Shown here piece by piece: positions 34,317 through 45,674 of a DNA stretch of 64,000 nucleotides. Origin of the DNA: Vulcanisaeta moutnovskia 768-28 (GTDB taxonomy: Archaea; Thermoproteota; Thermoprotei; Thermoproteales; Thermocladiaceae). Position numbers and translations under genes: made by a program. The stretch is from assembly GCF_000190315.1 (NCBI RefSeq), contig NC_015151.1, positions 2,024,509-2,088,508 of the forward strand, written 5' to 3'. Positions within the stretch are counted from its first letter, which is position 1. Each line of letters opens with the position of its first letter. The notes beneath the pieces are model-generated. The model made no database searches. It worked only from the letters and a program-made list of their open reading frames with translations, and was not told the origin of the DNA.

Positions 34317-34602
34317 GAATTCACTGTGGAATAGGTAGTAAAATAAAAGCTTTAGCTCTAGCTTAAAAATAATACATTGAGCATATATCTAAGTGATGAC
34401 AACCCCCGGAACTGACATCGAGTGAAGAATTCACGTACCGGCTGACTTTATTCACTTTTGATGCTTCTAATTTTAGCTTCACAAGGCTTCACTTCAAATA
34501 CCGTTTTCAAAAATAGATAATATCAATAAGTCCAATAGCACTTATAGTACTTACTAGTTAATAATAATTATTATACCATAAGGAACAACTCTTAATTTAG
34601 CA
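34317..34602. other. Intergenic stretch carrying C/D sRNA 3
   Basis: This 286-nt gap between rpoL and the surface protein holds a TATA-like element at 34361-34370, a guide RNA at 34393-34445 and an AT-rich promoter for the rightward gene near 34566-34577. Nothing else is seen. Confidence 0.6.
34393..34445 (+). ncRNA. Candidate C/D box sRNA 3
   Basis: The boxes are: C box GTGATGA (34393-34399), 12-nt guide CAACCCCCGGAA, D' CTGA (34412-34415), 6-nt spacer, C' GTGAAGA (34422-34428), 13-nt guide ATTCACGTACCGG, and D box CTGA (34442-34445). A TATA-like GCTTAAAAAT (34361-34370) is centred about 26 nt upstream. From memory of conserved rRNA, the second guide is complementary over about ten bases to CGGUACGUGA in the 23S domain V, near the peptidyl-transferase centre. 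This makes it the best-supported target here. Confidence 0.75.
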
Positions 34603-42216: not shown

Positions 42217-43542
42217 TTGCGGAGGGTAATAATACTGGGTGCGGGCGGTCGAGACCTACATGTATTCAACATGTACTTCAGGCATAACCCAGAGTATAAG
42301 GTTGTTGCTGTCGCCCAGGTTCAGATACCAGGTATTGGTGGTAAGCGTTACATAAAGGGTTCAGGAGATCTCTATCAACCAGGCGGTATACCCCTAGTTG
42401 GACTTAAGGATCTCGAGGATTTAAACCGGTTAATTAGAGACTTGGGTGCTGATGAGGTTATCTTAGCATATAGTGATTTACTTTATAATGATGTCGGTAA
42501 AATAATAAGTATTATTTTAGCAAGTGGTGCAAGCTTTAGGATTCTTGGTCCGAGGGATACCATGATAAAGTCCTCCAAGCCAATGATAGGTGTTGTTGCT
42601 ACTAGAACAGGTGCTGGTAAATCAACGGTTTCCCATGAGGTAACAGTAGAACTCCTTAGGAGAGGACTAAGGGTCGCGTCAATAAGGCATCCCATGATTT
42701 ATATGAATCCCGATGATATGCTTGTTCAGATATTTAAGACAAAGCAGGACTTGATGAAAATAACGTTTGAGGAAAGGGAGGAGTATGAACATTATATTGA
42801 GATCGGTGTACCCGTACTTGCTGGTGTTGATTATGAGATGATACTCAATGAGGCAGAGACCATGGCAGACGTAATACTATGGGATGGTGGTAATAACGAT
42901 TTCCCATTCTACTACACTGATTACTTAATAACGGTTACTGATGCCAGGAGACCAGGGCATGAGGTCGGCAGCTTCCCTGGTGAGGTAAATACTAGGTTGG
43001 CCAATTCAATAATAATAACGAAGGTGTCTGATTCAACTCCTGATAATGTTAGGACAATAATCAATAATATTAAAGCCGTTAATCAAGGGGCATCAATTAC
43101 GCAGGCTGATCTTGAGGTTTACCTGGATAATCCGAATGAAGTATCAGGTAAGAGGGTGATTGTTATTGAGGATGCGCCAACGGTCACTCATGGAGGTTTA
43201 CCATACGCGGCAGGGTACATAGCAGCCAAGAAGTATAATGCTGAGATAGTAGATCCAAAGCCGTACGCTGTGGGCATAATAAAGGAGACCTACGCCAAGT
43301 ATACGCACATGGGGTCAGTACTACCAAGCCTAGGCTATACTCCAGAGCAAATAAGGGATTTAGAGGAGACCATAAGGAGGATACCAGCTGACGTAGTCAT
43401 TATGGGTACTCCAGCTCACATTGAGGATGTTGTTAAGATTGATAAGCCAATAGTTAGGGCTAAATGGAGACTTAAGGTTCTTGAAGGGCCAACAGTAGGT
43501 CAGTTAATTGATGAATTCCTTGAGCGAGTGAGACTTAAGTAA
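42217..43542 (+). CDS. Cyclic 2,3-diphosphoglycerate synthetase-like P-loop protein
   Basis: This 441-residue protein begins with a Rossmann-like domain (RRVIILGAGGRDLHVFN) and then has a P-loop RTGAGKSTVSHEV near residue 130. ILWDGGNNDFPFY and TDARRPGHEVGSFPGEVNTRLAN follow. This order matches the cyclic 2,3-diphosphoglycerate synthetase family, which makes the thermoprotectant cDPG in some methanogens. Crenarchaeal relatives are often called GTPases. I cannot tell whether this one makes cDPG. The start is the TTG at 42217. Confidence 0.85.
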   Translation: MRRVIILGAGGRDLHVFNMYFRHNPEYKVVAVAQVQIPGIGGKRYIKGSGDLYQPGGIPLVGLKDLEDLNRLIRDLGADEVILAYSDLLYNDVGKIISIILASGASFRILGPRDTMIKSSKPMIGVVATRTGAGKSTVSHEVTVELLRRGLRVASIRHPMIYMNPDDMLVQIFKTKQDLMKITFEEREEYEHYIEIGVPVLAGVDYEMILNEAETMADVILWDGGNNDFPFYYTDYLITVTDARRPGHEVGSFPGEVNTRLANSIIITKVSDSTPDNVRTIINNIKAVNQGASITQADLEVYLDNPNEVSGKRVIVIEDAPTVTHGGLPYAAGYIAAKKYNAEIVDPKPYAVGIIKETYAKYTHMGSVLPSLGYTPEQIRDLEETIRRIPADVVIMGTPAHIEDVVKIDKPIVRAKWRLKVLEGPTVGQLIDEFLERVRLK

Positions 43543-44200: not shown

Positions 44201-44914
44201 TCATAATGATAAATTCCCCTCATCCCTAACTACGACAGGTCTAGCATGGATAACTCCTCCTAAATACCTGGTCGTCAGGTCGATTATGAATTGCACGGAG
44301 TCAAGGAGTCTCTCATCATCAATGCCAGGTACACCTGCGGTAATTATTAATACATTTTTTGTTTCAGTCCTTATCTTCGTAATTTCAGAATCCCTATATG
44401 GATAAACATGTAGTATTAAGCCATCTATTGTCGATAGTATAATTTGATTATTGCTTAGGGTCCTTTTAGGTGAACCAATTGGATTAAAGGTCTCTCCATC
44501 CCGTGCATATCGTATGATGAGATCCTTACCACTAAAACTATCAATATCATAAAGCCCAATTGGTACTAAGTACTTTATGCTTGCTGCATTCCCAATATCA
44601 ACCACTGGATTAATCCTTGGCAAGTCCTCACCCCTGAGAATCCTTCTAAGCAGTGCCTCCTGGGCTGGTCGTTGCTTCGTTGGGTCTATACCAAGTTCAT
44701 GCCAATAAAAATCCCTATAAAACCTGATTATAGGGTCATCCTTAAGCTTATCAAGACTGTACTTAGCCCTAACATCCTCAATAGTATTGTTAATGGTAGC
44801 CAGTAATTCGCTTGGGTAATCATTATTAATTACATTACTGACTATGCCTACACCAACAAAGACCTTACCCCTGAGCTTAGTATCTATTGAGAGTTTCACG
44901 CGATTACATAACAA
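44201..44914 (-). CDS. B3/B4 tRNA-binding-domain protein
   Basis: The 237-residue protein matches the stand-alone B3/B4 domain of the phenylalanyl-tRNA synthetase beta subunit. VRAKYSLDKLKDDPIIRFYRDFYW precedes the core GIDPTKQRPAQEALLRRIL, NPVVDIGNAASIKYLVPIGLYD and the end TTRYLGG. In full PheRS this domain edits mischarged tRNA. Separate copies are thought to act on free mischarged tRNA or on other substrates, and are common in archaea. It is followed downstream by the PNPOx-like gene. Confidence 0.88.
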   Translation of the reverse strand: MLCNRVKLSIDTKLRGKVFVGVGIVSNVINNDYPSELLATINNTIEDVRAKYSLDKLKDDPIIRFYRDFYWHELGIDPTKQRPAQEALLRRILRGEDLPRINPVVDIGNAASIKYLVPIGLYDIDSFSGKDLIIRYARDGETFNPIGSPKRTLSNNQIILSTIDGLILHVYPYRDSEITKIRTETKNVLIITAGVPGIDDERLLDSVQFIIDLTTRYLGGVIHARPVVVRDEGNLSL

Positions 44915-44943: not shown

Positions 44944-44992
44944 TCAGCTCTGGTGCCACTCCTCATTATTCAGAAATACCAGTCTTCATCAC
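44944..44992 (-). ncRNA. Candidate C/D box sRNA 5 (left member of divergent pair)
   Basis: On the minus strand: C box GTGATGA (44992-44986), 12-nt guide AGACTGGTATTT, D' CTGA (44973-44970), 3-nt spacer, C' ATGAGGA (44966-44960), 12-nt guide GTGGCACCAGAG, and D box CTGA (44947-44944). Outer C and D boxes and D' are perfect. The D' guide is complementary to AAAUACCA, which from memory is part of a conserved stretch of archaeal 23S rRNA. It starts about 26 nt from the shared TATA element and runs away from sRNA 6. Confidence 0.78.
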
Positions 44993-45014
44993 TCTGCTTC
45001 ATCGTTGTTTAAAG

Positions 45015-45028
45015 AAATTTTTAATACC
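45015..45028. promoter_or_regulatory. Shared bidirectional TATA element of two divergent sRNAs
   Basis: The AT-rich AAATTTTTAATACC reads as a TATA box on both strands. Its centre lies about 29 nt from the C box of sRNA 5 on the minus strand and about 31 nt from that of sRNA 6 on the plus strand. Each spacing matches the archaeal 26-nt rule with a leader of a few bases. Confidence 0.6.
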
Positions 45029-45052
45029 TACCTTAATTATGTTCGCGTGTTA

Positions 45053-45102
45053 ATGATGAGCACCTCGACCCCTGACATTATGAGGAGTGGTATTACGGCT
45101 GA
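45053..45102 (+). ncRNA. Candidate C/D box sRNA 6 (right member of divergent pair)
   Basis: The boxes are: C box ATGATGA (45053-45059), 12-nt guide GCACCTCGACCC, D' CTGA (45072-45075), 4-nt spacer, C' ATGAGGA (45080-45086), 12-nt guide GTGGTATTACGG, and D box CTGA (45099-45102). It shares C' ATGAGGA and the following GTGG with sRNA 5, so the two may come from a duplication. The D box ends two bases before the stop of the csl4 gene on the other strand. Targets are not assigned. Confidence 0.8.
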
Positions 45103-45104
45103 TC

Positions 45105-45674
45105 TCATATCCAGTATTCAATAAGGCTAACCTTACGCCTAACCACAGCACCACAATTGGGGCATTGCAACAAATCATTGCCCTTTAATTTCAATTCATG
45201 ACCGCATCTAGGGCATCTTGCATAAACAACACCAAGTTGCGCATCCCTTAGGGTTAACGTATATGGCGGATCCCTAGATATTACTCTAGCTCTAATTATA
45301 TCACCAATTCCAAGTATTTCACTGGCGTTACTTGACTTACCATTTAGTAATTGGGATGGCGGTATTATGCCCGTCACATCATCCTTCAACGCCATCTTGC
45401 CGCCATTATTCTCAACACCAATTATCTTCACAATAACAACCCTATCATTTGGTATTGCTATGACTCTGCCATAAACGACATCATTTACCCTTAATAATGA
45501 ATTACTGCTTCTTAAGGGTTTAACGCTAACTACATGGTCCCGCTCATTCCTAACTACAATACCCATAACCTGAGCCCTCAACTTACCATCCGTATCAACT
45601 TCAACATTCTCCCCAGGCAAATATTCCTCAGCGACACCTATAACATCTCCCGGTGCAACTATTTCTTTATCCAT
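45105..45674 (-). CDS. csl4: Exosome subunit Csl4
   Basis: This 189-residue protein is the archaeal Csl4 cap protein of the RNA exosome. An N-terminal domain (VAPGDVIGVAEEYLPGENVEV) is followed by an S1 RNA-binding domain (DVVYGRVIAIPNDRVVIVKI) and a C-terminal zinc ribbon with CPRCGHEL and CPNCGAVV. It helps bind RNA and recruit DnaG to the exosome. In other archaea the gene lies near other exosome or RNA genes; here it lies among a guide RNA pair and surE. Confidence 0.93.
   Translation of the reverse strand: MDKEIVAPGDVIGVAEEYLPGENVEVDTDGKLRAQVMGIVVRNERDHVVSVKPLRSSNSLLRVNDVVYGRVIAIPNDRVVIVKIIGVENNGGKMALKDDVTGIIPPSQLLNGKSSNASEILGIGDIIRARVISRDPPYTLTLRDAQLGVVYARCPRCGHELKLKGNDLLQCPNCGAVVRRKVSLIEYWI

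Follow-up and report, generated by a model that had tools for sequence, protein, structure and literature searches.

Helix 18 of 16S rRNA has already been called a methylation hotspot (PMC4644070). Among the C/D box sRNAs reported by Dennis et al. in 2015, the RNA-seq-detected family Pca sR28/Tte sR114/Sac sR115 has predicted targets at 16S A512 (D' guide) and G491 (D guide), and the family Pca sR53/Tte sR15, likewise detected by RNA-seq, has predicted targets at 16S A509 (D guide) and at C530 and C34/35 (D' guide) (PMC4644070). Bidirectional promoters of the BRE-TATA-BRE type have been described in P. furiosus, with start sites ∼49 to 50 bp apart, and one of them was shown in vitro (PMC6640164).

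In Vulcanisaeta moutnovskia, we found two C/D box sRNA genes, A and B, that occupy opposite strands in a head-to-head arrangement, with their 5' ends toward a single TATA-like core. We consider it probable, judging from their sequences, their conservation and their complementarity to rRNA, that these are divergent methylation-guide genes driven by one bidirectional BRE-TATA-BRE core promoter. Text searches of the literature returned no description of divergent C/D sRNA pairs, and as far as that literature shows, a divergent shared-TATA pair aimed at one ribosomal loop is undescribed; an earlier mention of such pairs, or of a Pyrobaculum PCNA linkage, is possible.

Two facing C/D box sRNA genes

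The window, that is, the whole 64-kb stretch of the 2,298,983-bp V. moutnovskia genome that was analyzed, contains A at positions 44944 to 44992 on the minus strand, from the C box (44992 to 44986) to the D box (CTGA, 44947 to 44944), and B at positions 45053 to 45102 on the plus strand, from the C box (ATGATGA) to the D box (CTGA, 45099 to 45102). Read 5' to 3', A consists of GTGATGA, the D' guide AGACTGGTATTT, CTGA, ATA, the C' box ATGAGGA, the D guide GTGGCACCAGAG, and CTGA, and B consists of ATGATGA, the D' guide GCACCTCGACCC, CTGA, CATT, the C' box ATGAGGA, the D guide GTGGTATTACGG, and CTGA. Both have the anatomy of an archaeal C/D sRNA, with RUGAUGA, CUGA, C', and CUGA in this order within ∼50 nt and two guides of ∼12 nt. 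A strict C-D'-C'-D pattern, searched on both strands of the window, gave three matches, two of which are A and B. The presence of two complete C/D guide RNAs on opposite strands, proposed by an earlier sequence-only reading of this DNA, is thus confirmed by the box anatomy, by the strict pattern search, and by their recurrence in 11 of 11 congeners. At the gathering threshold, Rfam gave no match in the window and missed both A and B; below the threshold, on both strands, the matches belonged exclusively to C/D sRNA families, the best being snoPyro_CD for A (E = 0.0005) and sR5 for B (E = 0.03).

A further single C/D sRNA candidate, also missed by Rfam, was observed in an intergenic gap at positions 34393 to 34445 (plus strand). 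It can form 11 contiguous pairs with 23S rRNA through its D guide (position 2005) and 8 through its D' guide (position 2049).

The pair is flanked on one side by an ORF for a csl4-like exosome subunit (45105 to 45674, minus strand; Pfam ECR1_N, 5e-9), whose stop codon lies 2 bp past the D box of B on the opposite strand, and on the other, downstream of A, by an ORF for a B3/4-domain protein (44201 to 44914, minus strand; Pfam B3_4, 1e-27). The nearest long plus-strand gene upstream of B ends at 43542, making it unlikely that B arises by read-through on the plus strand. This gene (42217 to 43542) we take to encode cyclic 2,3-diphosphoglycerate synthetase, and a homologue of it is found near an A-family sRNA at two loci of g8 (L066 and L069), a trace of a common neighborhood.

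Conservation of the pair

The csl4-like gene was used as the anchor for locating syntenic loci in 12 Vulcanisaeta genomes and was found in 11 of them; the remaining genome (G006) is 54% complete and gave no csl4 match. In all 11 genomes, the divergent A/B pair lies directly downstream of csl4, with its boxes and all four guides kept and the variation falling mostly outside the guide cores. The synteny check in related genomes that the sequence-only reading had suggested therefore came out in favor of the pair, with the guides and a central TTAAAA core retained in every congener that has csl4. When the pattern of a compact pair was searched in 84,980 genomes (species), all matches came from Vulcanisaeta (7 records) except for four scattered ones in bacteria, from two cyanobacteria, an Enterobacter, and a member of Anaerolineales, that are probably due to chance.

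Guides and their predicted targets in helix 18

The four guides were compared with the 16S and 23S rRNAs of the same genome by the N+5 rule. The best sites are all in 16S rRNA, at G475 for the D guide of A, A493 for the D guide of B, A496 for the D' guide of A, and C514 for the D' guide of B (Eco equivalents about 514, 532, 535, and 553, respectively, by our own count), and the N+5 nucleotide forms a Watson-Crick pair in all four cases. These predicted targets fall within one 40-nt stretch, from GGTGTCAGCCGCCGCGGTAATACC onward, and lie in or beside helix 18, whose 530 loop is part of the decoding center. Aligning the guides to the rRNAs had been proposed from the sequence alone, and an absence of matches to any stable RNA would have counted against the pair; instead, every guide has its best match in this region. 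The target pairs of A and of B each span 21 nt, the D' guide of B has an additional, weaker match at 16S C34 (helix 3), and the target region is near-identical in the six other congeners in which 16S rRNA was found.

Taken singly, the guide matches are ordinary by score compared with shuffled guides (for the D' guide of A, 102 of 400 shuffles score equally well), and the weight of the target evidence therefore rests on the coincidence of the four guides, whose best sites fell within 40 nt at a frequency of 7.5e-6 when the guides were shuffled. The four Vulcanisaeta sites differ from the published ones by a constant offset of 16, and the C34 match is recovered as well. Judged by predicted target and not by the published sequences, A belongs to the Pca sR28/Tte sR114/Sac sR115 family and B to the Pca sR53/Tte sR15 family, so the guides themselves are not new.

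It could be argued that A and B are chance C/D-like sequences without function, given that the boxes are short and that a lone guide may match by accident. We regard this as hardly credible, since it is contradicted by the conservation in 11 genomes, by the coherence of the targets, and by the existence of known families for which relatives provide RNA-seq support.

The duplexes predicted for the D' guide of A and the D guide of B overlap on 16S positions 493 to 499, so that both RNAs could not occupy the site on one 16S molecule at once.

A TATA-like core between the two genes

The shared TATA-like core, TTTTTAATA/TATTAAAAA (45018 to 45026, assigned to neither strand), lies midway between A and B, the center of TTAAAA being 29 and 31 bp from the two C boxes. 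Across the 11 congeners, the TTAAAA core is always 26 to 31 bp from both C boxes and no more than 3 bp away from the middle of a C-box-to-C-box spacer of 52 to 60 bp, in agreement with the earlier proposal of one AT-rich element at matching distances from the two RNAs. Dinucleotide shuffles of one spacer gave such a central placement of the core in 1 to 4% of trials, and since the species are related, these per-species values are not simply multiplied.

A promoter motif learned from the ORF starts of the window was poor, probably owing to uncertain start codons, and was replaced by a motif trained on the 30 tRNA genes of the same genome. The latter is a BRE-TATA motif (AAAA-x-CTTAAAA) that begins 34 to 39 bp before the tRNA 5' end, with scores of 7.7 to 19 for the tRNA genes. 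Toward A, the match is GTAGGTATTAAAAA (45018 to 45031, minus strand), with a score of 2.3, in the top 0.34% of window positions, and it precedes the C box by 39 bp, about the tRNA register. Toward B, it is AAAGAAATTTTTAA (45011 to 45024, plus strand), with a score of 3.8, in the top 0.17%, and it precedes the C box by 42 bp. Among the congeners, the best match starts 36 to 39 bp before the C box in the A direction (9 of 11) and 36 to 42 bp before it in the B direction (10 of 11), and in most species the two matches overlap, having a common core and separate upstream flanks. The core and its spacing, as expected of a bidirectional TATA element, are present in all 11 genomes, and the BREs are weak in most species; the motif scores at the shared element are generally modest (about −1 to 4) and in most species well below those of tRNA promoters, with the exceptions of G009, where the A-direction match is tRNA-like (19.0), and G011, where the B-direction match is good (9.6).

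The position of A on the csl4 strand, ∼110 bp past the csl4 stop, allows for a different arrangement in which both guides are real and only B has a promoter of its own, served by the TATA, while A is cut from the csl4 transcript at its 3' end. One review puts the share of archaeal C/D sRNAs with a TATA-like motif of their own at only ∼20% and adds that many are released by processing of longer transcripts (PMC7994747), and the BRE in the A direction is poor (GTAGG) in most species. Such an origin of A nevertheless appears unlikely to us, as the element is about equidistant from both RNAs in every species and the A-direction match in G009 (locus L007) is a perfect tRNA-type promoter, stronger than the one in the B direction. 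Co-regulation of A and B from one TATA, which had been put forward from the sequence alone, is plausible.

Origin of the pair

The sequence-only reading had also suggested that A and B may be a duplicated inverted pair, and in V. moutnovskia the two RNAs do have the 11-mer ATGAGGAGTGG in common, as well as TGGTATT in both the D' guide of A and the D guide of B. The 11-mer, however, is not kept in the congeners, whose C' boxes (ATGAGGA, GTGAAGA, ATGACGA, and other forms) vary independently in A and B. TGGTATT is required in both guides by their common target AATACCA, and the TGG that starts both D guides is likewise dictated by the targets. Inspection of alignments found no similarity of A and B beyond the boxes and the common target. 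The two families also differ in age: the sequence model of A (R1) gives a single strong match in most genomes, both in the order and in the class, whereas matches to that of B (R2) are restricted to the order Thermoproteales, and A and B are at different loci in other genera. The derivation of the pair from a single guide gene through inverted duplication is therefore very improbable, and this part of the earlier proposal was not supported.

Another possible route is provided by family f2, a Thermoproteaceae-like family (by an inferred name). A and B lie 0.85 to 1.9 kb apart in 13 of its genomes, and the gene between them is identified by Pfam as PCNA. B and PCNA are arranged head to head, with 35 to 62 bp between the 5' end of B and the probable start of PCNA in 12 of 14 genomes compared, and A lies beyond the PCNA 3' end. 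In this family, the B-family guide RNA and the PCNA sliding clamp may share a promoter. At loci L103 to L114, A and PCNA are mostly on one strand, L103 and L112 being the two exceptions with A on the opposite strand. The block is rearranged in two genomes of the family, with A and B separated by 7.7 kb (L115, G036) and ∼17.7 kb (L116, G028), and at L102 (G029; 2286 to 2930), B and the PCNA gene are pushed apart by ∼600 bp of additional DNA.

Removal of PCNA from the order B-promoter-PCNA-A would give the Vulcanisaeta order, and in Vulcanisaeta the PCNA gene is elsewhere in the genome; the pair may therefore be the Thermoproteaceae-like block minus PCNA. In g3 and g4, two genera of the same family as Vulcanisaeta, A and B are found on separate contigs and have other neighbors, and in a third (g2), the sequence models gave no clear match for either A or B, so common ancestry of the A-B linkage is only possible.

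Proposed mechanism and comparison with known systems

In the mechanism that we propose, TBP on the central TATA core would recruit TFB in either orientation, and one short transcript would emerge to each side. Each transcript would be bound as a k-turn RNP (L7Ae, Nop5, and fibrillarin) and trimmed to ∼50 to 55 nt. A would then direct 2'-O-methylation of 16S G475 and A496, and B that of A493 and C514, and possibly also of C34 in helix 3. Because of the predicted duplex overlap at 493 to 499, the two RNPs would have to act one after the other or on separate pre-16S molecules.

Since A and B would have the same decoding-center loop as their target and be in partial competition for it, their production at a fixed ratio can be proposed. 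That the bidirectional promoter was selected for a fixed A:B ratio, having formed via loss of PCNA from a B-TATA-PCNA-A block, is a tentative reading that we think has the odds against it. If the part on PCNA loss were true, promiscuous bidirectional transcription would have become a two-RNA module. Bidirectional TATA promoters of P. furiosus have been described as a source of nonfunctional antisense RNA; if both Vulcanisaeta products are functional on the same 40 nt, the locus would be a natural test of selection on bidirectional promoters for co-production, in which two guides are predicted to compete for one rRNA segment and the order of events in its formation is suggested by the locus itself.

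The P. furiosus promoters, with a single TATA, transcripts on both sides, and starts ∼50 bp apart (PMC6640164), resemble what is predicted for Vulcanisaeta, where the C-box-to-C-box spacer is 52 to 60 bp. They differ in that the antisense product in P. furiosus was judged to be nonfunctional noise (PMC6640164), whereas both Vulcanisaeta products are predicted to be functional guides and their arrangement is conserved in the genus. A resembles Pca sR28/Tte sR114/Sac sR115/Iho sR21 in the predicted targets of its D' guide (A512, Eco A535) and D guide (G491) and in their 21-nt spacing, but in Vulcanisaeta it faces B over one TATA, while the Thermoproteaceae copy lies beyond the PCNA gene. B, in turn, resembles Pca sR53/Tte sR15 in the predicted targets of its D guide (A509, Eco A532) and D' guide (C530 and C34/35), and is set apart in Vulcanisaeta by having A, and not the PCNA gene, as its divergent partner.
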